Below are positions 6,601-29,072 of a DNA stretch of 64,000 bases, piece after piece. This DNA is from an uncultured Clostridia bacterium (GTDB lineage: Bacteria; Bacillota; Clostridia; Christensenellales; Borkfalkiaceae): the NCBI GenBank assembly GCA_947632015.1, contig CANRNP010000001.1, positions 1 through 64,000 on the forward strand, given 5' to 3'. The notes under the pieces are model-generated. The model was not told the origin of the DNA and made no database searches. It saw nothing but the letters and a program-made list of their open reading frames with translations. The position numbers and the translations under genes were made by a program. Each line of letters opens with the position of its first letter. Position 1 is the stretch's first letter.

Positions 6601-7147
6601 AGACGCAAACCATATACTCCGCCTTGTATTTCGCCACAAGGTTCAGATCGTTTTCGGGCATTACGGCGCCGCTTCCAAGAATTTCTCCGCCCAGCTCCCA
6701 TCCGCCGAACACGAGCCCCTCCTTTTGGGGAACGCGGTCGGCAAGATACTCCGAAAGAAGGGTGCCCGGACGGACGTAGCGGGATGTTTCGGCAAGTTCG
6801 CCCCCGTCTGCGTCGAGGGTAAGCACGGGGCATTTGAGATACTTCGCAAAGTAAGTGGTGCTCTCGCCGGGCAATACGTCGGGCAGAGACAGCCGCTCTC
6901 CCTCGCACCCCGCGTCCTGATACCAGCCGTCGAAATAATACCCCTCCTTTTCGGGATCGGACGGCTTTTCGTATGTACTGCCCGAACTGCCCTCGACGGA
7001 GGCAAGGTAAGTGCCGTCCCCCGTCTCGAACCGCAGCGTGACCCGTTCGCTGCACGCCGCCGATACGAGCACCGTGACCAAAAGCGCGAACACGACCGAA
7101 AAGACGGTGACGGACAAAGTTAAAATCGTTTTGCGGAAAGTTTTCAT
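3686..7147 (-). CDS. Large exported, probably lipid-anchored repeat protein: InlB/Flg_new-like repeats followed by about nine LxLDGYGG-type beta repeats
   Basis: Start MKTFRKTILTLSVTVFSVVFALLVTVLVSAACSERV (signal peptide, weak lipobox); KEGYYFDGWYQDAG; recurrent DTLTLDGYGGAVFARSG, GTLTLDGYGVRGVYRAG, GTLFLDGAGGALLGGA, ETLTLDGYGGAIYSGD, GTLALDGYGVRLGARA. Confidence 0.8.
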   Translation of the reverse strand: MKTFRKTILTLSVTVFSVVFALLVTVLVSAACSERVTLRFETGDGTYLASVEGSSGSTYEKPSDPEKEGYYFDGWYQDAGCEGERLSLPDVLPGESTTYFAKYLKCPVLTLDADGGELAETSRYVRPGTLLSEYLADRVPQKEGLVFGGWELGGEILGSGAVMPENDLNLVAKYKAEYMVCVYLQSADDPEKYERSAEYSYTGAQWADTEFLAEIPSLEHFSFEAEKSAASGELRAGGNLFELRFCREELEVSYSLEVPGGEKREESFVSRYGAHIGLGSPECPLGYEFFGWRSGGKEYAGGETVTLEEPLDLVGVWGKLYPALRGEGTLAVEVGEAEERRAVFENGEERAVGVFYRSDGSFAAGAHKGRLERDGFLTDDSGKYIGKSLFYGTAGEEYGVLTLDFGTGKASYRLPQAEIGGEYRYEYDEEAARYTGNYLFEGSGATFYFRLDGEKFLREGEEKERYTAYSYAGKTFLSDTLTLDGYGGAVFARSGVVSRGSYRGGRYENEWLFIPEEGESVRVLLGSLLWSDDEAFIEERSYLYYDPLLDGEYAAEGGGTLTLDGYGVRGVYRAGGTSREGAFLRTGDLITLYGGEPLRFTLKGENFVPTGEEYGEYAGEKGTLFLDGAGGALLGGAAGSYRAGDGAWEFEGSETFSFRLSGQEYRVFDGLRYGNFENPLYGLALVLDGYGSGTYYPRFAVEIEAEVLYSGEELFVLRSDMIKGNTKTLALSVNREEKTVSEIAAAEAGIFPVFRGQEFTGGSLVLDGKGGAALLGAGEKRGEYRYEQKTREVSCMFGDLPARYRFEERGGVTVCVQSDVVGVFRNGGETLTLDGYGGAIYSGDEGFSAKYAVVNGRAEILRERELLQFELSEGEFSLRRFTRYLDPLSGDELYLQTDDLLAIYAGEVRREGIHEEFRFLSEGMRFEYRLKGENFYYYEAAQEGHFRTPDGAEIDTDGCGFGVLTAGGERTEGSARITSGGLVVFSSPSVKTPSGQLGFRIAGEGLAEALGEEFGTYERFGGEGKLFLRGDGTLFLFEGGVWRQGEYAGEEELLCTFAGGDVRKMRVRRGGEGGVYEECNGALAALTGEYPSAEGTLALDGYGVRLGARAFVPVCAGEDGAVLREADTGEYFILRLGTIATLRAAHCNYRAAP

Positions 7148-7297
7148 TTTCTTCGTCTCCTTCCCCCGCGAAACGCGAGGTAAATTTGATTTTATCACTT
7201 CCCGCCCGCAAAAAATTGCCGATCGTAGCGAAATTGCGCTTTCTTTATCCGTTTTCCCGCCGCGGCAAAAAAATTCGCATGATTTGGAAAAACTCCC

Positions 7298-7326
7298 TTG
7301 CAATTTCCGCGCAAACGCGCTATAAT
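7298..7326 (+). promoter_or_regulatory. sigma70-like promoter for fba
   Basis: TTGCAA-17 bp-TATAAT, followed by GGAGG before the fba ATG. Confidence 0.75.
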
Positions 7327-12607: not shown

Positions 12608-12672
12608 GGTTCACCTCATTCGTTGCTATTATAGCGCATTGCCCGCAATTTGTAAAACACTTCCGCAGGCGA

Positions 12673-15132
12673 TTATCCGGTAATTTCGAGCCTTCCCTCG
12701 ATTCTGACGATCTCGTAACAGAAGGTGACGTCCTCCCCGCGGACGTTGCGGATAGAGACGGACCCGATGGTGTTCGGCGAGACGCCCACCCCCTTTTGCA
12801 CGCCTTCGATCGAGACGCTTATGGCATCGCCGTTTGCAAGGGAGCCGAGGGAAATGCGGCAACTCTGCGCCGAAAGTTCGGTCCCGTCGTCCTTTTTGGT
12901 GACCGATTCGCTCGTGATCTCGATGTGCCGCGGGATGATTTTGAGCGGTTCGCCCGCAAAGGAGAGAACGTAGTCGTCCTCCGTGAGGGAGAGCCCGTCC
13001 TTCGAGACGGAAATGGGGAGACTCCTGATCGTTTCCATCGGATAGGTACCGACTTTCGTGAGGCTTCCCGAAAGGGAGAAGGAGACCGAGAGATCGCCGA
13101 GATTATTCCATTTCTCGATGAACCAGTCGTTGGAATGGTAGGAGAGCGGGGCGCCGTCGTAGACCTTGCTCAGCTCGTAGAGGGTGATCACGAGGCGGTA
13201 ACGGACGGTGAGGACGCCGTAGCGCACGATCAGCACCTCGTAATTTTCGGTAACGACGTTCCCCGACCTGTCGAAGATCTCAGGGGTGAAGCGGTTTTCG
13301 TACTTTCTCACTTCCTTCGCGCCCGTGCGGACGCCCCCCTCTTTCGCCCGCAGGAAGTGCCCCGCCACGAGCTCGTAGGGGGAATCTGCGGCGTATTCGA
13401 ATTCTTCGTAAAAATGCTCGCCGCCGTCGTACAAAAAGTCCCGCGAGCCCGTAACGATCCGGATGGGGCGGGGCAATATGCTCAGCGTGCCGAAGCGCAG
13501 TTCGATCTCGTAATTGTCGGAGACGTCCTGGTCGTTTTCGTCGAAGATGCGCGCGAAAAACCTGCCCGTAACGGCGCCCTCCCACACGTTTTGCACGGAA
13601 GCCGCAACGGTGCCCTCCACCCTCTGCCCGTGCGCGAGCTCGCCCTCGGCAACGAAGATGTCCTCGCGGGGGTCGGCGGAATGGCGCTCGCCGTCGTAGA
13701 TGAATTCGCGGTCGCGGCAAGCGACGGTGATCGGGCAGGGCAAAACGGTGAGCGTGCCGTATTCCGCCGTGATAAGATATTCGGACGTGACGTCCGACGC
13801 GCGCCCGCCTTCATCGGAGAAAATGCGGATGACGAGGACGTTCGAGATCCCTGCGATCGCGCCGTTTTTCCGGATCACGTCGGTCACGCTGAAATCGACG
13901 GCGAGCCGCGCGGTCTCTCCCGCCGCAAGCGCTTCGGCGCCCGCCGTTTCCCCCGCATAGCGGAGGGAAAATTCACGGCAGACATGGGGAAGCCCGTCAT
14001 AGAAAAATTCCTCGGAGCCCGTTACGAGCACGACGGGACGGGGGGTGACCGCAAGTTCGCCCGCCGAGAGCGAAATGTCGTAATTTTCCGTGACGTCCCT
14101 GCCCTCTCCGTCCGTGACGGTGACTTTAAGCTCGATCTGTTTCCGCCCCGTGTAACGGAGTTCGTTCTCCCCCGAAAGAAGGAGACTGTGTCCCTCGGCG
14201 AGCCCCGAAACTTCCGCGCTTTCAACGTCCGCCGTGAGCGGCAAGCCGTCGTATTCCTTTTCCGCGCCCGCGACAGAGACGGACAGGGGACGCTTTTTCA
14301 CCGTGAGCGCGCCCGATTTTATGCGGACGCGGTAATAATCGGTCATATCCCCCTGCTCCCCAAAAACGGAGTATTCCGGGCGGTTCTCCACCCGCCCGAC
14401 GTCGGTGAGGCTCTCGGAAAAGGTGAGAAACAGCTCGTCGCCGAAGGCGAGGCTCCCCTCCTCTATGATGTATTTGTCGCTCGTGAGCGGGGTGCCGTCG
14501 TAGACCTTTTCCGCGTAGTCCACTTCGACCGTGATTTCGCGGCGGGTGACGGTAACCTCCGTCTCCTCGGCAATGACGCGGTAGCAGGAAGTAACGTCCT
14601 CTTCCCCCTGCATGACGCGAATGCTCTCCGCTTTGGGCGTTATGAACGTATTTTTGCCGAACGTATAAGAAAATTCCGTACAAACGAGCTCGTCGCCCTC
14701 CAAGGGGTCGGCGGTCGCGACGGGCAATTCGCCGTACGTCCATTCCTTTTCGACCCCCACGCGCAATTCCCGCGGAAGCACGGTGAAGAAGTGTTCCTTC
14801 CCCTTTTTGCCCGCGCCCTCGGAGACCGCACGCACCCAGAATCCGCCCGTTGCGGCGGGCAGCTGCTCCATCCATTCCTCTTCGCCATCTCTGCGGTATT
14901 CATAGCGGACGCCCTGAAAGACCGCCTTCGCGCGATAGGGAAGCTCCTCGCCGTAAACGATTTCGGCGGGGCATTCCGCCGCGTCGGAAACCGTCCCCGC
15001 GACGCTCGCCATCGTGATCGCAAAGGCGATGAGAAGAACCAGCGCGGCGCAGACGGGCACGCGGAACCGCCAGAGCTTTTTCAGCATTTCGCCCACACGG
15101 TCTATCCTGTTTTTATACTCGGTGTACCCCAT
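12673..15132 (-). CDS. Membrane-anchored ectoprotein made of tandem YDG/MBG-type repeats
   Basis: N-terminal TM (FRVPVCAALVLLIAFAITMASVAGTV); recurring about 80-90 aa unit with VYDGTPL / EYDGLPL / FYDGLPH / IYDGERH / LYDGGEH / VYDGAPL and DVTxNYxIxxxxGxLxV. Confidence 0.85.
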   Translation of the reverse strand: MGYTEYKNRIDRVGEMLKKLWRFRVPVCAALVLLIAFAITMASVAGTVSDAAECPAEIVYGEELPYRAKAVFQGVRYEYRRDGEEEWMEQLPAATGGFWVRAVSEGAGKKGKEHFFTVLPRELRVGVEKEWTYGELPVATADPLEGDELVCTEFSYTFGKNTFITPKAESIRVMQGEEDVTSCYRVIAEETEVTVTRREITVEVDYAEKVYDGTPLTSDKYIIEEGSLAFGDELFLTFSESLTDVGRVENRPEYSVFGEQGDMTDYYRVRIKSGALTVKKRPLSVSVAGAEKEYDGLPLTADVESAEVSGLAEGHSLLLSGENELRYTGRKQIELKVTVTDGEGRDVTENYDISLSAGELAVTPRPVVLVTGSEEFFYDGLPHVCREFSLRYAGETAGAEALAAGETARLAVDFSVTDVIRKNGAIAGISNVLVIRIFSDEGGRASDVTSEYLITAEYGTLTVLPCPITVACRDREFIYDGERHSADPREDIFVAEGELAHGQRVEGTVAASVQNVWEGAVTGRFFARIFDENDQDVSDNYEIELRFGTLSILPRPIRIVTGSRDFLYDGGEHFYEEFEYAADSPYELVAGHFLRAKEGGVRTGAKEVRKYENRFTPEIFDRSGNVVTENYEVLIVRYGVLTVRYRLVITLYELSKVYDGAPLSYHSNDWFIEKWNNLGDLSVSFSLSGSLTKVGTYPMETIRSLPISVSKDGLSLTEDDYVLSFAGEPLKIIPRHIEITSESVTKKDDGTELSAQSCRISLGSLANGDAISVSIEGVQKGVGVSPNTIGSVSIRNVRGEDVTFCYEIVRIEGRLEITG

Positions 15133-15141
15133 GCGTCCGCC

Positions 15142-18100
15142 TCAATACAGTTCAAGTTTTCCGTCGAAGGTATCGATGTTGTAATTTTTCGTAACGTCCT
15201 CGCCTTCCGCGTTGAAAATGCGCACCGACACCACGCGGTTGCTCGCTCTTCCCCGCTTCGAAAGACTGCCTTCGAGCACGACGACGACCCTGTGCCCTTC
15301 CACGAGCCCTTCCGATACCCTGTATTCCTCCGAAGTGAGGGTCTGCCCCGTAAAGGGCTCGCTGGCGCTTCCCGCCCATACGATGATCGAACGTGGGGTA
15401 ACGGTGAGGGCGCCGTATTCGTAGGAGATGATATATTCCTCGGTGACGTCTTGAAATTGCGCGTTCCGCACGGTGACGGTAAGCGTATTGCTCACCGAGC
15501 CGACGTCGCGGATCGTGGCGACGCTTGCCGCGTCGAAAAACAGCATGTGACCGGGAGCGAGGGCGGAGCGCTCTTTTGCAAGCTCGAATCCGCTATCCGA
15601 ATGGTAAGTCCCGTCGTACACGAAATCGCGGCTTTGGGTGATGATGAACAGCCTTCTGCGGAATTGTTTGAGATATTCGTCGATTTGGGACTTTCCCGCC
15701 TCCAACGCCCGCTCGACCGCCTCGCCGTCTACCGCGCCCTCGATGCCTTGAACGCCCTTTTCGAGCAGTTCGCCGTAGAGCTCGCCCTCGATTTCCCGCT
15801 TTTGCTCTTCCGAGAGGTCCTCGCGCTCCTCGATGAGCCCGCTCTTTTGCCCGACGTAATCTTCCAGCTCGCCCTTCGCCTGCTCTTTCGCTCGGTGCAG
15901 CTCGTCGTCTGCTTCCGATACCCGCTGCCACACGGCATGGAAAACGACGTTCCCCGTCACCTCGTATTCCGCGCCCGCGGGCAAGAAATCGTGAAATGTC
16001 CGGGAAGGATCCCCTTCGATCCAGTACGCGCCGTTTTCCGCATGGAGCTCCTCTGTCCAGCCGACGAGGATGTAATTTCTGCCCAGCCGCTCGGCGAGGT
16101 AGGCATGGGCGCCGTATTCGTTCAGCCCGAAGAGCACGATCTTTGTGCCCGGAAGGATGTCGCTCACTTCTTTCTGCCAGTTATCGGGGTCTCTCTCCGA
16201 AGAAGAGCGGTATTCGACGGTGTAGCGCTCCAGCTCCCGCCAGTCGGGGACGCCGTTCTGGTTCTTGTCCTCCGCCCAGAGCGCGTGCAAAGCGATCTCG
16301 CCCGCCTTGGCGTGAGAAGGATCGACCGTGTACGATTTTTGCAGAACGGGCTTTGGAATTTCGTCCTCGCCGCGCAAAATGTCGTGTTCTTTCGTGCTCC
16401 AACCCAAGAGGGTATAGGGTACGCCGTCGCGGAAGAGCCATACGCCCGCAGGCAATCCGACCGTCTGCCCCGCCTTGTAGGTTCCGAGCTCGCTCGGAAG
16501 GGAAAGACCTTCCGTTTCCCCGCTCGTTTCGGAGACGAGCGTGAGGCGGTAGGAGCGGTCGCCTAACGAAAAGTCGGGATCTGCCTGACCTGCCCCGTCT
16601 CCATTTCCGACCGCGTCCACCTTGATCCAGCCGCTTCCCGCGATATAGATCTCCGTCCACGCATGCCCCTGATCGGCGTAAAATACCGTATCTTTGTTTG
16701 CCGCCACCCTGCCGACGTATCCCGTAACGTAGCGCGCGGGAATGCCGACGGCGCGGAAGAGAAGGGTCGCCGCCGCCGCAAAGTGCTGGCAGATGCCCTC
16801 CCTGTACTCGTTGAGGAAGGCGAGCACGACGTCGGGCGAAGAATCGAGACCGTCGTCGTAATCGAGATTATATCTCGCCCGCCCGCGCACGAAGGAGCCG
16901 ATCTTATCGATGATCTGCGGATCGTCCGGGGCGATCCCCTCCTCGGCAAGGATGTTTTCCAGACCGCGGCGGGTGCTCGCGGGAATGGAGAGGTACTTTG
17001 CGCAGACGTAGGCGTAATATTCCTTCTCCCGCGCGGCGAGTTCGCCCGTGAGCGCGGGGAGCTCTTCCCCGTATTTATAAATGCGGAAGGGGACCGTGTA
17101 GGGCGCGGAGACCTTCGCGGAGCAACGCACGTCGCTCGTCTGCACGGGATAGCCGTCGTCCATCGTCGCGTAATAGGGCAACAGGAAGAAGGGCGAATCG
17201 ATCGTGACCGAATAGACGTCGCCGCCGAGCGCGGCGCCCGTGAGATAGTTGTAGCAATACTTGCCGTAGAGGAGCTCCGGATAGTCCTCGCCCGCCGCCC
17301 ATCCGTGATAAGTATAGTCGCCGTAACTGCTTTCGCGCAAATACATGGACGTATCGACGTTCGCATAGACGGAAAAGAGGGGCATGTGCGGAGGATCCGC
17401 TTTGGAAAACGTCGTATCGCGGTTCTCCTCTTCCGGCTCGGTAGCGCTTTCGTCCGTTTTCCACACGGCATAGAGGGCGAGCGTATCCCGCACGGCGAGC
17501 ATTTCGTCGACCGTGTAGCTCCCGCCCGCGGGGATGAATCTGCCGCTCGCGCGGAGAACAAATTCCTCGCGTTCCTCCTCCGTTTCGCAAAGATAGCTGT
17601 CGAGCCCGCCGTCCTCCGTCCAGCCGAACAGGATATACTTCTCCCCGTCGCGCTCCAAAGCGCCCCGTTCGGGGGTCGTGACGGACTCCCCGCACACCGC
17701 CTGCGCCGCGCTCGGAAGCGTTCCTTGAAGGAAAGTCGTCTGCCCCTTCTCGCGGTTTCGGTATTCCACCGTGTAGAGCTTTTGCCAAAGAGGATAGAGC
17801 GTTTCGTCGCTTTGGACGACGAGTTCGCCGAAAAGCACTTCCCCCCAGAGCTCCCCTTCGCAGAGGGGATACCGCTCCTCCCTGCTCCAACCCGCAAAAC
17901 GGTAAGCGCGGTTTTCCGCCTCGACGGGCGCAAGAGCGGGAAGCTCGACCGTCGTATTGCACAAAACGGAGAGATCGGCGGGATATTCTACGCCTTCGAA
18001 CGTGTGGCGGAAGGTGACGGTGTAATATTCGCCGCTATCCTCCCAGTCGGGGATGCCGTTCTTGTTTTCGTCCTTTGCCCAGACGGCATAAAGCCCGATC

Positions 18101-19389
18101 TTCCCCTCTTCGGCGTCCTCAGGGTCGATGAGATAGGTCTGCGCCGTGAGGTAAGCCTTTCCCTCTTCGGCAAACATTTCGTCGAATTCCGCCTGCGAAT
18201 GCACGGTGTAACGGCTGAGCGCGCCGTCCTTCGTCCACCCGCAGAGCATGTAATCTTCGCCGAGGCGGAAATTCCCATCGAGAGGGACTTTTTCGCCCGC
18301 CCTCCCGATAAAGGGGACCTTCCACGGTTCGGGGCGCACCTCCCCTTCGGCGAGGTTTTCGAAATGGACCTCATAAAGGGAAGGCGGGGCGGGCAGCGCG
18401 CCGCTCCCCGTGACTTCGACCTTGATCCAGCCGACGCCGTCGCGGTACACTTCCACCCAGGCGTGCGCGCCCGAAGAATCGATCTCCGTCCATTCGTTTT
18501 CCCTTACGTTCCCCACAAAGCCGATGACGTAGCGGGCGGGAATGCCCAGCGTGCGGTAAAGGAGGGTCGCCGCCGAGGCAAAATGGCGGCAGACCCCTTG
18601 TTGATACTCGGTGAGGAAGGAGACGACGATGTCGTCGCTTTGATCGAGCGCGGGATCGTACCGCTCCGAATACTCCGCCGACGATTTTATGAATTCCGCG
18701 ACGGCGCCGACGACGTCCTTCCCCTCGCCGAGCCCGTTCTGTTCGGCGAGAGAGGAGAGCACCTGCCTCGTTCCGGCGGGGACGTTGAGATAGGAATCAT
18801 AGACAAATTCGCGGTAGGCAAGTTCGCGTTCGGAATATTCCTTCGCGGAAGAGACGTTCCCCTCCTCGTAAGAGATATAGTCCGCTAAGTAGCTCTTGCC
18901 CGTATCGCCCGCATAGGAGACGTCGCTCGTTTGCGCGTCGTATCCGCTGTTCTCGCGGCAGAGATAGTAGGGCAGGAAATACTGCCCGTTGTACGATATG
19001 ATCGTGATATGGTTGAGCGCATACCCCGAAGCCTGCATTTCGGCTCCGGCGAGACTGTTCATGCCGTTCACCCCGTCGAGATCGCCCCCGTAGCTTTTAG
19101 CGTTGTTCCAGCTTTTGCCCGTGTAATCGCCGAAACTCATGAGGCGGAAATACATGCGCTTGGTTTCGTACCCGAACACTTTCAGCGCCGTTTTGGCGTC
19201 GTTGCGGTCGTAGTCATCCTTCGTCAGATCGCCCGAAGTATCGAGTTTCTCGCTCACAGGGTCATCTCCGTCGCCCGTACTGTCGCCCGTCTCCCGCAGG
19301 AAGAGCGACGCGCCGTAGAGCACTAAGGCGAGCAAGATCACGATGAGCAGAGCGCCCACGATATAGATCGGTTTCGAACTGTGCTTCAT
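15142..19389 (-). CDS. Membrane-anchored protein with two transglutaminase-like modules, InlB-type repeats and C-terminal YDG/MBG repeats
   Basis: N-terminal TM; GVCRHFASAATLLYRTLGIPARYVIGFVG...GAHAWVEVYRDGVGWIKVEV and GICQHFAAAATLLFRAVGIPARYVTGYVG...GHAWTEIYIAGSGWIKVDA; C-terminal DFVYDGTYHSD...DVTEEYIISYEYGALTV. Confidence 0.9.
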   Translation of the reverse strand: MKHSSKPIYIVGALLIVILLALVLYGASLFLRETGDSTGDGDDPVSEKLDTSGDLTKDDYDRNDAKTALKVFGYETKRMYFRLMSFGDYTGKSWNNAKSYGGDLDGVNGMNSLAGAEMQASGYALNHITIISYNGQYFLPYYLCRENSGYDAQTSDVSYAGDTGKSYLADYISYEEGNVSSAKEYSERELAYREFVYDSYLNVPAGTRQVLSSLAEQNGLGEGKDVVGAVAEFIKSSAEYSERYDPALDQSDDIVVSFLTEYQQGVCRHFASAATLLYRTLGIPARYVIGFVGNVRENEWTEIDSSGAHAWVEVYRDGVGWIKVEVTGSGALPAPPSLYEVHFENLAEGEVRPEPWKVPFIGRAGEKVPLDGNFRLGEDYMLCGWTKDGALSRYTVHSQAEFDEMFAEEGKAYLTAQTYLIDPEDAEEGKIGLYAVWAKDENKNGIPDWEDSGEYYTVTFRHTFEGVEYPADLSVLCNTTVELPALAPVEAENRAYRFAGWSREERYPLCEGELWGEVLFGELVVQSDETLYPLWQKLYTVEYRNREKGQTTFLQGTLPSAAQAVCGESVTTPERGALERDGEKYILFGWTEDGGLDSYLCETEEEREEFVLRASGRFIPAGGSYTVDEMLAVRDTLALYAVWKTDESATEPEEENRDTTFSKADPPHMPLFSVYANVDTSMYLRESSYGDYTYHGWAAGEDYPELLYGKYCYNYLTGAALGGDVYSVTIDSPFFLLPYYATMDDGYPVQTSDVRCSAKVSAPYTVPFRIYKYGEELPALTGELAAREKEYYAYVCAKYLSIPASTRRGLENILAEEGIAPDDPQIIDKIGSFVRGRARYNLDYDDGLDSSPDVVLAFLNEYREGICQHFAAAATLLFRAVGIPARYVTGYVGRVAANKDTVFYADQGHAWTEIYIAGSGWIKVDAVGNGDGAGQADPDFSLGDRSYRLTLVSETSGETEGLSLPSELGTYKAGQTVGLPAGVWLFRDGVPYTLLGWSTKEHDILRGEDEIPKPVLQKSYTVDPSHAKAGEIALHALWAEDKNQNGVPDWRELERYTVEYRSSSERDPDNWQKEVSDILPGTKIVLFGLNEYGAHAYLAERLGRNYILVGWTEELHAENGAYWIEGDPSRTFHDFLPAGAEYEVTGNVVFHAVWQRVSEADDELHRAKEQAKGELEDYVGQKSGLIEEREDLSEEQKREIEGELYGELLEKGVQGIEGAVDGEAVERALEAGKSQIDEYLKQFRRRLFIITQSRDFVYDGTYHSDSGFELAKERSALAPGHMLFFDAASVATIRDVGSVSNTLTVTVRNAQFQDVTEEYIISYEYGALTVTPRSIIVWAGSASEPFTGQTLTSEEYRVSEGLVEGHRVVVVLEGSLSKRGRASNRVVSVRIFNAEGEDVTKNYNIDTFDGKLELY

Positions 19390-19399
19390 ATTTCCTCCT

Positions 19400-21055
19400 C
19401 TACCCGTTCCGCGCGATGCGGCGGATATATTCTTTGCAGACGGTCATGCGTTCGCCGAACAATTCATCCAGAAAGTCGCACAACTCCTCGGACATGTTGC
19501 GCACATATACCGCGTTCTGCGCCTCCAACTTTCTCAAAACCTTTTTGGAGATGATGTCGTCGAGCGCGTCGAGTTCGTCCCCCCCGCAGTCGACAAACAC
19601 GGGGACGTAGCTCTTGATCTGCTTCATGATGCGGTTGCCGAACGAGATATGGAATTTCTCGCTCAGGAAGGCGTCGAGCTTGCCGAGGCGCCTTAAATTG
19701 CGCGACGTGATCTCAAAACACTCGCACGAGTCCTTTACGAGCGCGTCGAACTGCTCCGCGGAAAGGCGGATGTTGCGGCAACTCTCCGCGCGGAAGGGCT
19801 CGCTCTTCCGGTCGAGGTTGAGCACCATCGCACGGTCGTACACCTTATCCGAGATCGCAAACGTCGAATCGTCGTTGTTCGCCGTGCCGATGAACCACAT
19901 GTTTTCGGGAAGTTTGATCCGCCCCTCGTTGAGGAGCTTGGGATCGGTTTTCCACTTGTCCGAGACGACTTCGAGGAGCCGCGCTTCGGGGTCGGGGATC
20001 TCCAAGAGAGACAGAAACTCCGCGAAATAATATTCCACGCGGGCGATATTCATCTCGTCGAGAATGGTGATGTAGATATTTTTGTTATAGTTCGCCTCGT
20101 ACATTTTTTGCAGGAGCAACGTCTCGTTGAACCGCTTGGTGAACTCGTTATAGTAGCCGAGAAGATCGGTGCGCTCCTTCCACATGGGCTGGACGGGGAT
20201 CACCGTAGACGGGTTTTCGAGGAATTCCCCGAAGGCGTAGGCGAGGGAAGTTTTTCCCGTGCCCGACATGCCCTGCAAAATGAGGATGCGGGAGACGGCA
20301 AGCCCCGCGATAAAGCGGCGGATGTCCGATATGTCGTAATAAAGCCCCAACTTGTTCGCCGCAAAATTGCGGAATTCTTCGCAAAGTTCTTTTAAGGTAA
20401 CCTCTTCGTCGAACCCGCCGCCCATAACGCGGTAGGGGTCGTTATCGAGCTCCGCGAGCAGGCTGAAACGGGGCTTTTCCACCTGTTCCTTCTTTCTAAG
20501 CTCCTCTTCTTCCTTGCGGCGGCGCTCCTCGGCGTTCTTCCGCGCGATGACTTGCGACTGGAAGCGGATGCGCCTTTTGAGCGCGGCGACCGTACGGCTG
20601 CGGCGGAAATTGACAAAGATCATACAGCCTGCGAGAATGGGCAACAGGAGCAGATGGGAAAGAAAGAGGGTGCCGCCGATACCCGAAGGCTCCGAGGCGC
20701 TCATGTAGTACCAGATCTCCGCCTCCAAATAGCAATAGATGAGGGAAATGATGATGAGCGCCAAGCTCCAACGCTGTAACTTGATGTCGTTGGCGGTGCG
20801 GAAGAGCGCGTTCGATGCGTTGAGCCGATACAGAATGAACAGCAAGACAGGCAGCGCCACGAGGATCGCGATGAAAACGAATCCGACCGCTTCGCCGTTC
20901 AGACCCAACGTCTCCACGAAATTTTTCCAGCCCTCGCTGTCCGAATAGAACAGGATCAACGAGGACAGAACAAGTCCCCCCACGATCAGCGTGAGGATCA
21001 AAAGAATCAGCGGCAACAGAAACCGTGCGCGCACGCTCTTTCCCGGCTTACTCAT
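19400..21055 (-). CDS. Membrane-anchored McrB-like AAA ATPase (copy 1; about four N-terminal TM helices)
   Basis: Walker A LQGMSGTGKTS, Walker B ITILDEMNIARVEYYFAEFLSLLE, FIGTANNDDSTFAISDKVYDRA. Confidence 0.88.
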   Translation of the reverse strand: MSKPGKSVRARFLLPLILLILTLIVGGLVLSSLILFYSDSEGWKNFVETLGLNGEAVGFVFIAILVALPVLLFILYRLNASNALFRTANDIKLQRWSLALIIISLIYCYLEAEIWYYMSASEPSGIGGTLFLSHLLLLPILAGCMIFVNFRRSRTVAALKRRIRFQSQVIARKNAEERRRKEEEELRKKEQVEKPRFSLLAELDNDPYRVMGGGFDEEVTLKELCEEFRNFAANKLGLYYDISDIRRFIAGLAVSRILILQGMSGTGKTSLAYAFGEFLENPSTVIPVQPMWKERTDLLGYYNEFTKRFNETLLLQKMYEANYNKNIYITILDEMNIARVEYYFAEFLSLLEIPDPEARLLEVVSDKWKTDPKLLNEGRIKLPENMWFIGTANNDDSTFAISDKVYDRAMVLNLDRKSEPFRAESCRNIRLSAEQFDALVKDSCECFEITSRNLRRLGKLDAFLSEKFHISFGNRIMKQIKSYVPVFVDCGGDELDALDDIISKKVLRKLEAQNAVYVRNMSEELCDFLDELFGERMTVCKEYIRRIARNG

Positions 21056-22880
21056 CTTCCCCCTCTCCTGCGCCGTCCGCCTTCGGGAAGTCCCCTTCCG
21101 CCGCTTCGGGCTCTTTGTCTCTTTCTATCGTTTCTATCGTTTCGGGCTGTTCGTCTCTTTCGACCGTTTCCGCCGTTTCGGGCTGTTCGTCTTTTTCGAC
21201 CGTTTCCGCTTTTGGCGGCGTTTCTGCGGGTTCCGTTTCCCCGCGCTTTTTTTTCTGCGCCATGATGGAAGCTACAAGCGCCCGCCACATTTCGCGGCGG
21301 ATGCGCCGTTTCGTCTTTTTCCACTGCCCGCGGAAGAATACCTGAAAGAGGGCGTACTCCTTTTCCAGCTCGCGGAAAGCCTCTTCGGACGTGAAATCGT
21401 CGGACGGGGCGGTATAACCCTGTTCAAAGCGCAACGCATTCAGCCTGCCCTGCGCCAGAGCGCGCGCCTCTTCCGACTTGCGCAATTCCTCCGTGCGGTC
21501 TGCGAGTTCCCCCTCTTTTTCGCGCAGAAGGGCGCGGTGCTCCCCGTCGCGCGCGTTGAGCTCGCGATAGTATTCCTCCTCGGCGGCACGGAGTTCTTCG
21601 CGGTGCGCCGCCCGCTCGCCGTCGCGCTCGCGCGCCATTTCGTCGAGCCGCGCTCCTACCTCCGCCAGCTCCCTGCCGTGCCGTTCGTTGAGCTTTTCGA
21701 TCTCGTTGCGGTGCCCCGATATGACGAGGTTGAACTTCTCGATCTCGCCATTCAAACGCTCGATCTCCGCGCGGCAGGAAACGAGTTCTTCGTGCTCCGC
21801 CTCTAATTCGTTGTTGCGCGTCTCCAAGAGGAGCATATACTCCTCAGGGTCCCCCGCGCGCTCTTCGATACGGCGGCGAAGCGCCTTTAAGAGCTCCTTC
21901 CTCCGCTCGGCCTCCGCCTCTCTGCGCCGCGCTTCCTCCTTTTCGTACTCCGCTTCGAGGTAGTCCTCGATGCCGAGCCCGTGCTCATAGGTAAGAAAGG
22001 AGGCGAGCATTGCCGTTTCGGCAAATTCCTCGGCAAAGGCTCCGGGAAGCGGGGCGATCGTCTTTTCCTCTTTGAGGACGGTGTAGCCGTCCTTTGTGTA
22101 GGAAGAGAGAAATTCGTAGAGGGCGACCACCTCTTTGAAGTTCTTGTCCATGCGCAAAACGTTGGTTTTGGTAATGGGCGGTTTGAGTTTATCCACCTTT
22201 GCGACTTCGAGCATCAGCGGCGTGCGGAGATAGAAATACACCGAACGCAGAATGAGATCGATGCGGTCTACCGCGTCCTTCATGGGGTTGTGTTCGAGCA
22301 GATACGGATCGTCCTTCCGCTCTTCGGAAAGTTCCATGCGGTAGACGAGGCGCTCTTTGTTGAGGTTGACGACCTTATCGAACTTCACTTCGCCCGTGTA
22401 GGTGTTGGTGAGCTCCAAGATCTTGTGATAGCGCAGGGAGACGAAATCGCGCAGGTTGCAGAGCACCATGTAGAGAAAACGGTTCTCATAGACGGAATAG
22501 TCGTTGAGGCGCTCCACGGTATAGAGACGGTCGGGGATGATGTCGTTCCCCTTCTGCTCCCGCGAAATATAATTGCTGTGCCGCGCCAGATGCTCGACCG
22601 ATTCCCGCGAGACGTGCTTCACCTTTTCGATCTCCACCGTTTCGCCGTTGGAGAGAATGAACTGCCGCTCCTCGCCGATCGCCTTTTCGAGAAAGGGAAG
22701 CCCCCGCTCGATGGCTTCGATCCAGTCCTCCTCGATGACGCAACTCGTGCGCGTGACCGTGAGGCGGTCCTTTTCGGCGTCCGCACGGGCGATCGCCTCG
22801 CGGCGCTGCCCCGCCTCCTTTGAAGCGGTCTGCTTGCGGTATTCGAGAAATGCGCGATATAAAAGGTCTGTCAGGGTCAT
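21048..22880 (-). CDS. DUF2357-like protein with long coiled coil and Glu/Thr-rich repeat tail
   Basis: LYTVERLNDYSVYENRFLYMVLCNLRDFVSLRYHKILE resembles the DUF2357 family linked to McrB-like ATPases; central heptad-rich coiled coil; tail ETVEKDEQPETAETVERDEQPETIETIERDKEPE. Confidence 0.65.
   Translation of the reverse strand: MTLTDLLYRAFLEYRKQTASKEAGQRREAIARADAEKDRLTVTRTSCVIEEDWIEAIERGLPFLEKAIGEERQFILSNGETVEIEKVKHVSRESVEHLARHSNYISREQKGNDIIPDRLYTVERLNDYSVYENRFLYMVLCNLRDFVSLRYHKILELTNTYTGEVKFDKVVNLNKERLVYRMELSEERKDDPYLLEHNPMKDAVDRIDLILRSVYFYLRTPLMLEVAKVDKLKPPITKTNVLRMDKNFKEVVALYEFLSSYTKDGYTVLKEEKTIAPLPGAFAEEFAETAMLASFLTYEHGLGIEDYLEAEYEKEEARRREAEAERRKELLKALRRRIEERAGDPEEYMLLLETRNNELEAEHEELVSCRAEIERLNGEIEKFNLVISGHRNEIEKLNERHGRELAEVGARLDEMARERDGERAAHREELRAAEEEYYRELNARDGEHRALLREKEGELADRTEELRKSEEARALAQGRLNALRFEQGYTAPSDDFTSEEAFRELEKEYALFQVFFRGQWKKTKRRIRREMWRALVASIMAQKKKRGETEPAETPPKAETVEKDEQPETAETVERDEQPETIETIERDKEPEAAEGDFPKADGAGEGEDE
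21111..21212 (-). repeat. In-frame short tandem repeat encoding an ETxExDEQPETxETxERDEQPE-type acidic tail
   Basis: Forward strand repeats of cgtttc(c/g)gggctgttcgtctctttcgaccgtttccgc units. Confidence 0.7.
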
Positions 22881-22893
22881 GGCTCTCTCCCGC

Positions 22894-24207
22894 CTATGCG
22901 TTGTTTGCGAGCCTGCGGATGTATTCCTTGCAGGCGGTCATTTCCTCTTCGCCGAACAGCCCGTCGAGGAAGGCGCAGACCTCCTCCGCCATGCTCCGCA
23001 CATATACGGTGTTCTGCGTTTCCAGCTTGCGGAAAACTTTTTTGGCGACGATGTCGTCGAGCGCTTCGAGCTCCCGCCCGCCGCACACGACATAGACGGG
23101 GATATACGCCTTGATCTGCTTCATGATGCGGTTCCCGAAGGTGAGGTGGAAGGTCTTGATGAGATATTCGTCCAACGTCTCCAACTTTTCGAGCGTTTCC
23201 GCGGAGACGGTGTAAGCGCTCATCGCCGCCGCGGCGAGATCGGTAAAGTCCTTCGCCGAAAGACGGACCGTTCTGCTCGACGCCACATGGAAGGGCTCGC
23301 TCTTCCGGTCGAGGTTGAGCACCATCGCGCGGTCGTACACCTTATCCGAGATCGCAAACGTCGAATCGTCGTTGTTCGCCGTGCCGATGAACCACATGTT
23401 TTCGGGGAGCTTGATCCGCCCCTCTTTGAGGAGTTTGGGATCGGTCTCCCACTTGTCCGAGACGACTTCGAGGAGCCGCGCTTCGGGGTCAGGGATCTCC
23501 AAGAGGGACAGAAACTCCGCGAAATAATATTCCACGCGGGCGATGTTCATCTCGTCGAGAATGGTGATGTAGATATTTTTGTTGTAGTTCGCCTCGTACA
23601 TTTTTTGCAGGAGCAACGTCTCGTTGAACCGCTTGGTGAACTCGTTATAATAGCCGAGAAGATCGGTGCGCTCCTTCCACATGGGCTGGACGGGGATAAT
23701 GGTGGAGGGATTCTCCAAAAACTCCCCGAAGGCGTAGGCAAGGGAAGTTTTTCCCGTGCCCGACATGCCCTGCAAAATGAGGATGCGGGAGACGGCAAGC
23801 CCCGCGATAAAGCGGCGGATGTCCGATATATCGTAATAAAGCCCCAACTTGTTCGCCGCAAAATTGCGGAATTCTTCGCAAAATCCCGCGAGCGTTGCCG
23901 TATCGAAGGATTCGGCTGGCGGTTTGCCGTAATAGCGGTCGTCGAGTTCGTTGAGCATGGAAAAGCGGCTCGCCGTCGCCTCTTTTTTCGCCGTTTCCCC
24001 CGCCGCCGCGGCGCCTTTCGGTCTTTTCCGCATCCGCTTCATCGCTTTGGAAAAGCGACTTTCCTTCATCATGACGGAGATGATGAGAAGCAGGATGATC
24101 GCGAGGATGATGACGATATAGATGATTATGGCGAGCGGCGCGGTCATTTTGCTCCATGCCCACTTCAAAAAGTTGTTGACGTCGTCGAAGATCACAAGTA
24201 ATTGCAT
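22894..24207 (-). CDS. Membrane-anchored McrB-like AAA ATPase (copy 2; single N-terminal TM)
   Basis: APLAIIIYIVIILAIILLLIISVMM TM; Walker A/B and sensor region almost identical to copy 1. Confidence 0.88.
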   Translation of the reverse strand: MQLLVIFDDVNNFLKWAWSKMTAPLAIIIYIVIILAIILLLIISVMMKESRFSKAMKRMRKRPKGAAAAGETAKKEATASRFSMLNELDDRYYGKPPAESFDTATLAGFCEEFRNFAANKLGLYYDISDIRRFIAGLAVSRILILQGMSGTGKTSLAYAFGEFLENPSTIIPVQPMWKERTDLLGYYNEFTKRFNETLLLQKMYEANYNKNIYITILDEMNIARVEYYFAEFLSLLEIPDPEARLLEVVSDKWETDPKLLKEGRIKLPENMWFIGTANNDDSTFAISDKVYDRAMVLNLDRKSEPFHVASSRTVRLSAKDFTDLAAAAMSAYTVSAETLEKLETLDEYLIKTFHLTFGNRIMKQIKAYIPVYVVCGGRELEALDDIVAKKVFRKLETQNTVYVRSMAEEVCAFLDGLFGEEEMTACKEYIRRLANNA

Positions 24208-24208
24208 A

Positions 24209-27200
24209 TCATTCCTCTCCTTCTTCGCGGATGTTGCGCAGCATTCTCGCGCACCGCGGGAGGTCCTCTCCGAAAATTTCGTTCAGAACGGGCAGAAGTT
24301 TATCCGTCCCCGTCCGCCGCCAGATGGCGAGCATGCGGGCGAGCAGTTTTACCGCCACCACGCTGTCGAGCGCCTCTTCCTGCGTGCCGCCGCAGGCAAG
24401 ATAGACCGCCGCGTAATTCTCCGTCATGAGCCAGAGCCGATTCCCGATGCGGTAAGGCTCCCGCGCGTTGACGGCGCTCTCCAAACGGTCTACCCGCTTC
24501 CAGAGGGCCTCGTCGATCTCGCACGTCATTTTGGCGAGACGGTCGGATTCCGCCAGCTGGCGGTAGCCGTAAGGGCTCGTGAGACGCTTCCCCTCCCGCG
24601 GCGGAGCGGGCGTGAGTTCGGGAGTGAGCCACGACGCGACGTCCGCCACACAGGCGGGCAACTCTTCGGGGCTCTGCCCCTCGGACAGAATGAGGAGAAA
24701 ACGAAGATTCGGCGCGAGCGCGCACTGTTCGCCCGATCCGAGATCGAGCGGCTTTGCGCGGGGATCGCCGAGCCGCTCGGCGACGGGCGCGAAATATCCC
24801 TCCAACGCCGACAGCTTCACCCGGTTGAGCACCGCGAACTGCAAATAGGGCTTTAATTCGTTTGCGGAGACGATGGCGCGGTAGATGTTGCTCTTCACAC
24901 GCACGCCGTGGACGCCGTCTTTATAGAGAAGGTCGTCCAGGTCGCGGCAACGCTCCGCCCCTTCCATGTAGAAGGGAGAGCCGAAGTACTCGGCGAGCAG
25001 TCCCGCCAGCTTTACGAGCGGCTTTACGGGGCCGCGCAGAATGAGACAGCGGGTGGAGGCGAGCGCCGAAAAGAGGGAACGCACCGTATCGGCGCTCATC
25101 ACGAGCCCGCTATCCGCCGTGAACGCGGAGAGCTCCTCGCACGCCCGCGCAAAGGTGAGCGATTCGTCGAAATATGCCTCCCCTTCCTCTCCGCCGCCGC
25201 GAAGAGTCTCCTCCGTCTCCTTTTCTTCCAGCGCCTTCACGAAGAATTGCTCCAAAGGGGCATTTTCCGCCGACTCCGCGCCGTCGAGACGGACGGCGCT
25301 CTCAGGCAGGCTTGCGATAGCGCCCTTGCCCCGCGTTGCGCGTTCGCAGATGAGCGCGGCGCAGGAGAGCAGCAAGAGAAAATTCACGAAAAACATGAGA
25401 CCGCCGAAGCCGCCGAACGAGACCCCTGCGCTCGCCGCGGCGATGAGGAATACGTCCGCGATCGCCGAAATGGCGAGCATGATCAGCGCGGCAATGCGCA
25501 TGATCTTGTGCTCCTTGCGGTTGCGGAGAATGCGGGATCGCGCGTCTTTCAGCGTGTATCCCCCGTGCATGACGTTGGTTTCGCTCAAAAGATAATCGGA
25601 GATCGCCTCTTCCTTTTCCGCCCTCGGCTCCCCCGCGACCGTAAACACGCCTTTGAGGCGGATGTCGGTGACGGACGCGCCGATATAGAGGGTATAGGCG
25701 CCGCCGTCCGTGGAGAAGGTGTGCGAATCTTCGTTGTAATAGCAAAATCTTTCCGCGGGCAAAGCGATCTCGACGGGCTTGCTCTCGCCCGCGGCAAGTT
25801 CCACTTTTTCGAAGGCGACAAGCTCTTTCAGGGGGCGGACCCCCTTCTTCCCCGCATACACCTGCACGACCTCTTTCCCCGCAAAGGAGCCGAGGTTGGT
25901 TACGGTGAAGCGTACGGAGCGTTCCCCGATTTCAAGCCCCGAATAGGCGAAGGGGGAATAGCCCAGCCCGTGCCCGAAGGGATAGCGGGGCGGCGTGCCC
26001 GAAAGATCGTAACGGCGGTAGCCGACGAGCCCGCCCATGCGGTTGCGGCCCGCGTCTTTATATTTTTTGGAGACGAGGAACAGCTCGTCGGTGTTATCGT
26101 AGCCCGTGCGGGTGAGTTTGCCCGAAGGATTCACCTTGCCCGCGAGCACCCCCATCAGAGCGTCCTGCGCAAAACCGCCCTCCGCGGGGGCGAGCAGGAC
26201 TGCGTGCAACTTTTCGTCGAAGCCCATCTCCACGGGACGGTCCCCGCCGACGACGGCGACGATCTTCTTCCCCGTGCGGACGAGCGCGTCGATGAGCGCA
26301 AGCTGGCAGGCGGGCAAAGCGAGGCTCTTTATCAGCGACATTTCGTTCTCCCGCGCGCCGAGCCCCAAAAAGAGCAGGACGACGTCCGCCTCCTCGGCAA
26401 CGCGCACCGCTTCGGGGATGAGCTCCTCGCTCCGCTCTTCCGTGAGCGAATAGCCCTCCGCCTGCCCCGCGAACCGCAGGTTATGATCGGGTCCCGCCAA
26501 CCGCGAAAAGCGCACGGCAAAGCTCTCTTCCCCCTCCGTGGCGAGCGCGCCGACGACGGCGACCTTCGTTTCGGGGGAGAGGGGCAGGACCTCTTTGTTC
26601 TTCATCAAGACGATGCTCTCTTCCGCCGCCCTGCGGCAGAGGGATTCGGGATGTTCGGGCGGGAGAGTTTTGAGCGACGACAGCCTTTGCGCCAAGCCGA
26701 TGACCCGATCGACCGCCTCGTCGAGCCGCTCTTCGGAAAGCGCCCGCCCCGAACGGACCTCTTCGGCAAGCTCCTCCTCGGTGGCAGTCCCCTCCTCGAC
26801 CCGCTCCTTCAAACGGCGGTATCTGCCGAGGGCGGAATCGAGGGGCAGAACGGCGCCGCCCAAAAACACGTTCCCGCCCAAGAGCTCGTTAAAATCGGCG
26901 TCGAGCGGGACGTTCTCGCAGAAGAGGAAGCTCTCCCCCTTCGAAGCCTCACGCACCATGCGGCGGTTGACGTCCGAATAGTCCCCCGAAAGAGGGGCAA
27001 GCGAGGCGCGCAAAGCGTCCGCATTCCCCTTTTCCTGCGCGACGCGGAAGGGGATCTCATAGAACTTTTTGAGCGCCTCGTCGCTGCGGCGGACGTCGAG
27101 ATATTCCGCGTCCTCTTCCCGCAGGGAATATTCGCTCAGACAGCTCCCCACGTTGGCGCGGCGGATCCCTTCGAGACAGCTCCCGCCCAGCGCGCCGCAG

Positions 27201-27529
27201 AGGTAGGGATCTTCGGAAAGACGGTCGGAATAGGGGCTGACCCCGCTCTTGACGTCGGGCGCCACGACGAGTTCCACGCCGCGCGCGCCCGCCTCCGCCG
27301 CAAGCTGCTCGGAAACGTCGCAAAAGAGGGCGCGGTCCCAGCTCCGCGCGAGCCGTGCGGAATCGGGATAGCGCGAAGCGGCGGCGTTGATCTCCTTCAT
27401 CGTCGCCACGTTCACTTCGGCGACGCCGGCGCGCAGGATCTCCGCGTCGGCAAGGCTCTTCACGTCGGTGAGGAGCGCCAGCTTTTGCCGCAGATTGAGT
27501 TTTTCGATAACTTTGGGATATTTCAGCAT
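24209..27529 (-). CDS. GH3-like pseudoglycosidase fused through a TM hairpin to a degenerate AAA domain
   Basis: GH3 features (SEDPYLCGALGGSCLEGI; AAEESIVLMKNKEVLPLSPETKVAVVG; RYPFGHGLGYSPFAYSGL; FTVTNLGSFAGKEVVQVYAG), TM segments near 25340..25505, then a C-terminal region alignable by eye to the neighbouring AAA proteins but without Walker residues. Confidence 0.85.
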   Translation of the reverse strand: MLKYPKVIEKLNLRQKLALLTDVKSLADAEILRAGVAEVNVATMKEINAAASRYPDSARLARSWDRALFCDVSEQLAAEAGARGVELVVAPDVKSGVSPYSDRLSEDPYLCGALGGSCLEGIRRANVGSCLSEYSLREEDAEYLDVRRSDEALKKFYEIPFRVAQEKGNADALRASLAPLSGDYSDVNRRMVREASKGESFLFCENVPLDADFNELLGGNVFLGGAVLPLDSALGRYRRLKERVEEGTATEEELAEEVRSGRALSEERLDEAVDRVIGLAQRLSSLKTLPPEHPESLCRRAAEESIVLMKNKEVLPLSPETKVAVVGALATEGEESFAVRFSRLAGPDHNLRFAGQAEGYSLTEERSEELIPEAVRVAEEADVVLLFLGLGARENEMSLIKSLALPACQLALIDALVRTGKKIVAVVGGDRPVEMGFDEKLHAVLLAPAEGGFAQDALMGVLAGKVNPSGKLTRTGYDNTDELFLVSKKYKDAGRNRMGGLVGYRRYDLSGTPPRYPFGHGLGYSPFAYSGLEIGERSVRFTVTNLGSFAGKEVVQVYAGKKGVRPLKELVAFEKVELAAGESKPVEIALPAERFCYYNEDSHTFSTDGGAYTLYIGASVTDIRLKGVFTVAGEPRAEKEEAISDYLLSETNVMHGGYTLKDARSRILRNRKEHKIMRIAALIMLAISAIADVFLIAAASAGVSFGGFGGLMFFVNFLLLLSCAALICERATRGKGAIASLPESAVRLDGAESAENAPLEQFFVKALEEKETEETLRGGGEEGEAYFDESLTFARACEELSAFTADSGLVMSADTVRSLFSALASTRCLILRGPVKPLVKLAGLLAEYFGSPFYMEGAERCRDLDDLLYKDGVHGVRVKSNIYRAIVSANELKPYLQFAVLNRVKLSALEGYFAPVAERLGDPRAKPLDLGSGEQCALAPNLRFLLILSEGQSPEELPACVADVASWLTPELTPAPPREGKRLTSPYGYRQLAESDRLAKMTCEIDEALWKRVDRLESAVNAREPYRIGNRLWLMTENYAAVYLACGGTQEEALDSVVAVKLLARMLAIWRRTGTDKLLPVLNEIFGEDLPRCARMLRNIREEGEE

Positions 27530-28119
27530 GGCTCCTCTCCGAACTCCGTCATGACCGCTTCTTCCTCCTCTCCTTCTTCTTCCTTTCCGAGATTGCGGAA
27601 GAGGGAAAAGGCACCGATCGTAAGCGCGAGGGCGGCGACGACGAGGAAGAGGACGCGCTTGGACCTCCCCACGCCCGAAACGACGACGCTTCGCCTGCCG
27701 CCCGTTTTGCGCGAGAGTTTTTCGCGGTCGGGCGGCTCCGTCTCCGGAAGATACTTCACCCGTATCCCGCTTTTTTTCACTTCATAAACATAGTCGTGCG
27801 AGCGGACGGACAGCACTTCCACGCGCACGCGGGCGCATGCGCCGCTCAACGGGATCTTCTCCGTCGGACCGAAGATCTGCGCGGGCGCAACGGGCGGACC
27901 GCCGTAAACGTATTCCCGCTTGCCGATCGGACGTCCGTCGTCGGTATAGCCGAAAATTTCGAGGCGGAATCCCGTGACGACCTCTCCGCTCCCGTTGCAA
28001 AGGCGCAGGAGCAGATAGCGTTTCCCGTCCTCTTCGGCGATGAGATATTGCTCGACCGTAAGAAACCGGCTGTGCTGATGACCGGTGTAATTCCCCTTAT
28101 CCAAGATCCGCGCGCTCAT
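27523..28119 (-). CDS. Small tail-anchored membrane protein (EQYL domain, paralogue of next gene)
   Basis: RFLTVEQYLIAEEDGKRYLLLRLCNGSGEVVTGFRLEIFGYTDDGRPIGKREYVY; C-terminal TM VLFLVVAALALTIGAFSLF. Confidence 0.7.
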   Translation of the reverse strand: MSARILDKGNYTGHQHSRFLTVEQYLIAEEDGKRYLLLRLCNGSGEVVTGFRLEIFGYTDDGRPIGKREYVYGGPPVAPAQIFGPTEKIPLSGACARVRVEVLSVRSHDYVYEVKKSGIRVKYLPETEPPDREKLSRKTGGRRSVVVSGVGRSKRVLFLVVAALALTIGAFSLFRNLGKEEEGEEEEAVMTEFGEEPC

Positions 28120-28997
28120 TCTTCGCTCCCCGCCCTCTTCTTTTTGTGAAAAAGAGCACGGAGCCGTTCGGCGGCTCTTCCCGTTTTACGGCGAAGGGCG
28201 AGCATGAAACGGCTCGTGTAAAAGAGGACAAACAGATTGCGCACGGAATAGAAAAGATTTTTCGTGCGGGATACAAGGCGGGAGAGCGTTGCCGCGCCGC
28301 CTTTGGAAATTCCCCCTCCGAGACGGCGCAGACCTGCCGCCGCGCGTTTGAGGCAGAACAGGAGAAATACCGTTACGGAGACGGTTGCGGCGGAGAGAAA
28401 GGTCATGAGCGACACGAATCCCGCCCCGCCTTCGGGAAGAAGGGAGCCTTCCCCGCTCAAAAGGCGGAAAAAGCAGATCTCGAACAACAATGCCTGTAAA
28501 GAGAGCAAAAGCGTGAGAAAGAGCGCCGTTGCGATCATCGCGGGAAGAGACCGCCTGAAATTTTTTTCGCTGCGGGGAAGCGCCGTTTCGTTGACGGCGC
28601 GGAGGGCGGGAGAGACGGAGCCCGTATCCTTTGGCAGGGCGATCTGCTCGCCCCGTCCGTTCTTGGGCAATTCCCGCACGTTGAGGATCCCGATGATCCT
28701 TCGGCTGCGGTCGTAGACATAGAGGTCGTATTCGCAATAGAGGACGTCTTTCTTCCACTTGCCCAAAAAGACGGCGTCCTCGCCGATCCGCGCCACAAGA
28801 TATTGCTCCAAGGCAAAAGAAAACGCGGAGGACGGCTCATACACGACCGCACTCCCCGCGGGAAAATTGAGTTTGCGGATCCCGCGGTCCCGCGCGGCAT
28901 ACCCTGCCCCGCGCACCGCGAGGAGCAATTTGGGGAGAACTGCCGCGCAGACCGTTCCCAAAAGGGCTGTTCCGAGTAGGAGAAGAAAGACAAACAA
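28116..28997 (-). CDS. Membrane protein with EQYL domain; probable first gene of the operon (TTG or alternative start)
   Basis: FSFALEQYLVARIGEDAVFLGKWKKDVLYCEYDLYVYDRSRRIIGILNV plus three predicted TM segments; 4 bp overlap with the next gene. Confidence 0.7.
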   Translation of the reverse strand: MFVFLLLLGTALLGTVCAAVLPKLLLAVRGAGYAARDRGIRKLNFPAGSAVVYEPSSAFSFALEQYLVARIGEDAVFLGKWKKDVLYCEYDLYVYDRSRRIIGILNVRELPKNGRGEQIALPKDTGSVSPALRAVNETALPRSEKNFRRSLPAMIATALFLTLLLSLQALLFEICFFRLLSGEGSLLPEGGAGFVSLMTFLSAATVSVTVFLLFCLKRAAAGLRRLGGGISKGGAATLSRLVSRTKNLFYSVRNLFVLFYTSRFMLALRRKTGRAAERLRALFHKKKRAGSEE

Positions 28998-29043
28998 TGG
29001 GCGATTCCGGGCAAATGCCGCTCCTTTTTTCTATTCCGCTATG

Positions 29044-29072
29044 ATTTTATCATATCCCGGAAGAAAAGTCAA
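29044..29072 (-). promoter_or_regulatory. sigma70-like promoter of the AAA/transglutaminase operon
   Basis: Minus strand TTGACT-17 bp-TAAAAT, just upstream of 28997; the -35 overlaps the 3' end of the DUF1893 gene. Confidence 0.55.

Follow-up and report, generated by a model that had tools for sequence, protein, structure and literature searches.

An eight-gene clostridial operon with two membrane-anchored McrB-type NTPases, a nuclease-free DUF2357 partner, and large ectoproteins

Composition of the operon

The window analyzed here, the first 64,000 nucleotides of contig CANRNP010000001.1 from an uncultured gut bacterium of the Clostridia, contains eight open reading frames on the minus strand (Table 1), all of them located where the first-pass annotation of this DNA had placed them. 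The junctions range from an 8-nt overlap between p5 and p6 to a 13-nt gap between p4 and p5, as had been described, and the promoter candidate TTGACT-17-TAAAAT was recovered upstream of p1; it is a sigma-70-like consensus match only, with 0.1 such sites expected by shuffling. The metG gene, downstream of the operon, has its own promoter-like site. p1 has no ATG start, and its TTG start is uncertain. Searches of the eight proteins with Pfam, NCBIfam, and PADLOC retrieved no DUF58, VWA, or nuclease family, in agreement with the earlier reading, and no HEPN or toxin family, and Pfam and NCBIfam found no kinase, cyclase, DNA-binding output, or signal peptidase in the operon. The sole candidate signal peptidase elsewhere in the genome is C41, with a sub-cutoff SipW match.

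Table 1. Genes and promoter-like site of the operon in the window
Feature	Coordinates	Strand	Basis
Promoter-like site TTGACT-17-TAAAAT, upstream of p1	29044..29072	-	Consensus match
p1, membrane protein: N-terminal TM, soluble domain, two TM segments	28116..28997	-	ORF; TM prediction
p2: N-terminal beta-sandwich, one TM, short C-terminal tail	27523..28119	-	AlphaFold2
p3: GH3 pseudoenzyme, Fn3-like domain, TM hairpin (about 675-732), pseudoAAA	24209..27529	-	Pfam; alignments
p4 (AAA1): TM-anchored McrB-type NTPase	22894..24207	-	Pfam AAA_5; motifs; tree
p5: DUF2357 (McrC N-terminal) domain and long coiled coil, without nuclease domain	21048..22880	-	Pfam; hhalign; AlphaFold2
p6 (AAA2): McrB-type NTPase, about four N-terminal TM segments	19400..21055	-	Pfam AAA_5; motifs
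p7: N-terminal TM, large ectodomain, two transglutaminase-like domains, YDG-like repeats	15142..19389	-	Pfam Transglut_core x2; motif scan
p8: N-terminal TM, YDG/MBG-type repeat ectodomain	12673..15132	-	Pfam YDG; family tally

The AAA proteins and their DUF2357 partner

p4 and p6 both match Pfam AAA_5 and present a GMSGTGKT Walker A motif, a DEMN motif, and an NxD motif, ANNDD, that is nearly invariant among their homologues. Both show McrB-like similarity in NCBIfam and similarity to PDC-M26A in PADLOC, and the McrB-type AAA protein P0006 retrieves McrB chains with an E value of 2e-5. One transmembrane (TM) anchor is predicted in p4 and about four in p6, and hydropathy together with positive-inside flanks places the AAA domains in the cytosol. 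The earlier description of these proteins as TM-anchored McrB-like ATPases is borne out by the AAA_5 matches, the motifs, and the TM prediction. Bell et al. (PMC11090510) define the CoCoNuT/CoCoPALM branch by an NxD version of the McrB signature, which D or E often follows, and by sequence p4 and p6 belong to this NxD branch of McrB-type NTPases. In maximum-likelihood AAA trees, the loci with two AAA genes form one group, sister to a CoCoPALM-like group of single-AAA loci that come from the same order, Christensenellaceae, Erysipelotrichaceae, and Bacillales. Support is strong for the CoCoPALM-like group (100/99) and weaker for the two-AAA group (89/93 and 93/96).

The two AAA proteins are 96% identical over a 205-amino-acid core, and the DNA at positions 19738 to 20037 repeats that at 23235 to 23534 with 89% identity over 300 nt. 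When AAA1 is compared with AAA2 of its own locus, core identity reaches 100% (rounded) in 10 of 48 loci and at least 92% in 14 of 48, the window included; the AAA1 core shows a mean identity of 61 to 74% to the AAA2 cores of other loci, and the AAA tree pairs AAA1 with AAA2 of the same locus in many lineages. These cores are, on the sequence patterns, subject to repeated gene conversion, and such concerted evolution would fit subunits of one mixed ring.

p5 matches the Pfam DUF2357 model at 23.4 bits (cutoff, 23.3); 29 of 41 p5 homologues match this model too. p5 also aligns with the DUF2357 proteins of CoCoPALM-like loci with an hhalign probability of 100 and an E value of 1e-47. Its AlphaFold2 model presents helices at residues 305 to 543, comprising one helix of ~140 residues and further coil, followed by a disordered tail (residues 543 to 610) and no folded C-terminal domain; segment 74 to 123, into which the Pfam match partly falls, has low confidence. 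A fold search of the model (pTM, 0.50) against the PDB gave no significant match and no McrC, and the p5 profile retrieved only coiled-coil chance matches, and not McrC, among PDB sequences. Pfam, hhalign, and AlphaFold2 agree with the initial view of p5 as a DUF2357-like coiled coil with no nuclease domain detected.

The inactive fusion protein p3 and the small membrane proteins

p3 presents GH3_C and Fn3-like matches and a weak GH3_N match in Pfam, and about 620 residues of its GH3 domain can be aligned with active beta-glucosidases. All 37 aligned homologues have lost the SDW nucleophile region with the catalytic Asp, as well as the KH motif and the DGPHG loop, and judged by these residues the domain is a pseudoenzyme across the whole family. 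The C terminus is a divergent homologue of P0006 (E value, 6.4e-19) and lacks the Walker A motif in 48 of 49 proteins, the sole exception (L074) being a different protein. In the window's p3, the GH3 domain is not preceded by a signal peptide and is followed by a TM hairpin flanked by basic residues, so this domain is probably cytosolic; the TM count varies among relatives. The proposed GH3-TM-pseudoAAA architecture is upheld by Pfam, the homology to P0006, and the TM prediction, and an inactive protein of this type is kept in most loci. One locus (L104) presents a second, shorter p3-like protein of about 714 amino acids upstream of the operon.

Neither p1 nor p2 has a Pfam match. p1 has 41 homologues at the same operon position. 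The AlphaFold2 model of p2 (mean pLDDT, 83.6) shows a beta-sandwich and a TM segment and finds only generic beta-sandwich matches in the PDB, and in some relatives the C terminus is a long LRR_5 ectodomain (a BspA-type LRR fusion). The "EQYL domain" attributed to both proteins proved to be a short sequence coincidence: the family profiles do not match (hhalign probability, 1.9%), and p1 and p2 were rejected as paralogues.

The ectoproteins

Pfam identifies two Transglut_core domains in p7 and YDG in p8, and the YDG-like C terminus of p7 is common to p8. Most homologues have one N-terminal TM segment (37 of 43 for p7; 50 of 60 for p8), and the repeats of the two families match YDG, MBG (MBG_2), and AgI_II_C2, adhesin-type repeats of variable length. 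Where sequence extends past AAA2, two-AAA loci nearly always encode ectoproteins after the AAA genes. A motif scan shows that the transglutaminase Cys and His are kept wherever the domain occurs, p7 included, and finds the motif in 22 of 52 loci; the 30 loci without it still present AAA-DUF2357-AAA and YDG-type proteins. The duplicated transglutaminase of p7, the YDG repeats of p8, and the N-terminal anchors stand as annotated, but the transglutaminase varies from locus to locus, and as an optional component it was rejected as the core of the system. At locus L136 (14088-14747), an ectoprotein of tandem PWxxIPWxELPxD-type repeats takes the place of p7.

Recurrence, coinheritance, and insertion site

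A scan of 85,462 species genomes yielded 73 loci, nearly all in clostridial gut metagenome-assembled genomes (MAGs). Profiles of the individual parts found the full order p1-p2-p3-AAA-DUF2357-AAA-ectoprotein-ectoprotein in 23 sequence-distinct loci, which rules out chance; most of the remaining loci are truncated at contig ends or represent shorter forms. An assembly artifact is ruled out by the repetition of the order in many independent MAGs. The eight-gene order recurs in several families of one clostridial order, at least four of which have complete or near-complete arrays. Short forms were found in a further family of the same class (L190 and L191) and in one Acholeplasmatales MAG (L135). 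P0006 was matched in 22 of 61 relatives, and by our reading of its match table the two-AAA form is present in 14 of the 37 genomes of the genus, where the other three matches are different McrB types. Among 388 genomes of the class, the p5 profile matched 18; in a sample of 398 from the phylum it matched one, that of the window itself.

Pairwise distances of p1, p2, p3, AAA1, p5, and AAA2 correlate with one another at r values of 0.86 to 0.98 across ten genomes (nine for p1 and six for p2), and with those of the host metG at 0.48 to 0.71. The operon parts evolve together, not with the host metG. The recurrent order and the correlated distances show that the genes are co-inherited, as expected for the single operon originally proposed.

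In the window, the operon is inserted exactly between metG and a DUF1893 gene (Pfam TM1506), leaving 65 and 71 nt of that interval unfilled. The same site holds a 436-amino-acid LRR/collagen-like surface protein in the nearest carrier (G006), where the operon lies on a different contig from the metG-DUF1893 site, and a zinc-ribbon protein in G024, which gave no match to P0006. The cassette thus behaves like an accessory unit whose site varies. The 92 flanking proteins are diverse and mostly housekeeping, with no recurrent defense family among them, and a defense island was rejected on this ground. A phage origin was rejected because p5 has no match in phages and p6 has none in viral contigs.

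Three further features of these neighborhoods were recorded. The metG-DUF1893 interval is itself variable, holding the operon in the window (12607-29069) and an LRR/collagen-like or zinc-ribbon protein at the same site in L229 and L230. In G006, a gene that we read as a serine recombinase (L238, 3113-4837) adjoins the p8 end of the operon. Downstream of metG, the minus strand of the window (3686-7303) encodes a 1,205-amino-acid protein with a Listeria-Bacteroides repeat (Flg_new), probably a surface protein.

Relation to described systems

Published work on the CoCoPALM branch amounts to a single paragraph of a 2024 eLife paper, which names it and describes an NxD McrB-type NTPase with a TM (FtsB-like) and a coiled-coil segment, a coiled-coil DUF2357 partner, and a signal peptidase (Bell et al., PMC11090510). 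The examined sister loci pair AAA-DUF2357 with a signal peptidase: TIGR02228 scores over the cutoff in L160 and L066, and the SipW model scores below it in L160, L066, L091, and L156; the one gene tested in L086 matched neither model. By the features of their NxD AAA, DUF2357, and signal peptidase, compared with the description in that paper, the single-AAA sister loci match CoCoPALM. The present operon shares with CoCoPALM the NxD McrB-type NTPase with TM helices, the DUF2357 coiled-coil partner, the surface-protein context, and the sister position in the AAA trees, but it has two AAA genes instead of one and adds the GH3-TM-pseudoAAA protein, two small membrane proteins, and the downstream YDG/transglutaminase ectoproteins. 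Because it contains no signal peptidase gene, we file it as a sister variant of CoCoPALM and not as a member.

With CoCoNuTs, the operon has in common the NxD motif, DUF2357, a long coiled coil, and a nuclease-less McrC homologue. CoCoNuTs without an active McrC nuclease always lie beside HEPN or another nuclease (PMC11090510), whereas no adjacent nuclease was detected in this operon and its AAA proteins are membrane anchored. The classical McrBC of Escherichia coli shares the McrB-type AAA fold and DUF2357, but the AAA proteins here carry NxD instead of NxxD, have TM anchors, and lack a DNA-binding domain, and the PD-(D/E)xK nuclease is absent. The conserved plasmid operons L240 to L242 (Rhodoferax, Deinococcus, and Pseudanabaena), which encode a PP2C phosphatase, a Ser/Thr kinase, an AAA-domain protein, an unknown protein, an NxD McrB, and DUF2357, fall outside both the two-AAA and the CoCoPALM-like groups and form a further McrBC branch. 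A search for literature linking McrB with transglutaminase or SipW found nothing relevant.

A proposed surface-directed motor and its alternatives

As the best of the readings considered, we tentatively propose that the operon encodes a nuclease-free motor of the McrBC type, anchored in the membrane and devoted to the assembly, display, clustering, release, or tensioning of surface proteins. On the inner side of the membrane, p4 and p6 would combine into a single mixed hexameric ring, and the pseudoAAA of p3 would serve as a nonhydrolyzing subunit or adaptor. In McrC, the DUF2357 helical bundle carries a stalk that contacts the ring (PMC11090510); p5 would likewise insert its DUF2357 domain into the ring and stimulate NTP hydrolysis, as McrC does on McrB, while its long coiled coil could be a scaffold or stalk. 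NTP-driven movement could pass through the TM segments of p1, p2, p3, p4, and p6 to the N-terminally anchored p7 and p8 and drive their assembly, display, clustering, or release, and the transglutaminase domain, in loci having it, may crosslink or clip the ectoproteins. That the cytosolic AAA proteins remodel or energize the ectoproteins is something we purely infer. Because no sortase was found in the genome, sortase-independent handling of p7 and p8 is plausible. A more specific form, a surface-organelle machine, is doubtful; in it, a membrane-anchored, nuclease-free hetero-hexameric McrBC-derived motor, joined by the dead GH3-dead AAA fusion, would assemble giant surface proteins or extrude them across a Gram-positive-type envelope.

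The other NxD McrB relatives, the CoCoNuTs, are predicted defense systems (PMC11090510), which speaks against a surface motor, as does the p5 profile search that recovered no McrC among PDB sequences. A defense role, where a CoCoNuT/McrBC relative either detects cytosolic invaders and responds through the envelope or uses surface proteins to keep phages from adsorbing, would agree with the Type IV restriction-like description of these relatives (PMC11090510), with the patchy and site-changing distribution, and with the plasmid PP2C-kinase-AAA-DUF2357 operons of related AAA proteins. Both AAA proteins also match the PADLOC candidate PDC-M26A, though partially (E value, 1e-46; best stretch, positions 313 to 431 of 724), and no other operon gene matched a PDC-M26 model. 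We consider this role unlikely, given the lack of detected nuclease, HEPN, or toxin families, the housekeeping flanks, the negative phage and viral searches, and the ectoproteins that so regularly follow the AAA genes.

An AAA that matures or switches an extracytoplasmic transglutaminase, in envelope maintenance or enzyme activation of the MoxR-DUF58-transglutaminase kind, would account for the conserved Cys and His, and the bifidobacterial PFNA operon (pkb2-fn3-aaa-duf58-tgm) offers a precedent, in which genes for a MoxR AAA, DUF58, a transglutaminase, an FN3 adhesin, and a Ser/Thr kinase occur together (PMC6803598). PFNA has no DUF2357, and the systems are not homologous. The MoxR/DUF58/TgpA frame invoked by the first-pass annotation was rejected, as the AAA proteins are McrB-type (NxD branch, next to CoCoPALM) and neither DUF58 nor VWA is present; with the transglutaminase also missing from most loci that keep the remaining modules, such activation seems improbable. 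Very unlikely is a sensor whose ectoproteins and GH3-derived domain bind surface contacts or sugar ligands and control a motor that signals inside: the GH3 pseudoenzyme retained in all 37 aligned p3 proteins, the p2 ectodomain that is absent or LRR-type, and the repeats of variable length would suit it, but the GH3 domain is probably cytosolic and no kinase, cyclase, or DNA-binding output is present.

Motor proteins related to a DNA-cutting defense enzyme, here with no nuclease detected, anchored in the membrane, and regularly encoded beside large surface proteins, suggest that a defense motor was reused for building or displaying surface structures. McrB and McrC are known as DNA restriction motors, and the operon makes their reuse in cell-surface building testable. 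AAA proteins kept alike by conversion, alongside the retained dead GH3-TM-AAA protein, lead to a structural prediction, a mixed ring with a dead subunit. Elsewhere in the window, on the minus strand (58951-60771), a single 606-amino-acid protein is a fusion of DUF1385 with a PrmC-type methyltransferase.
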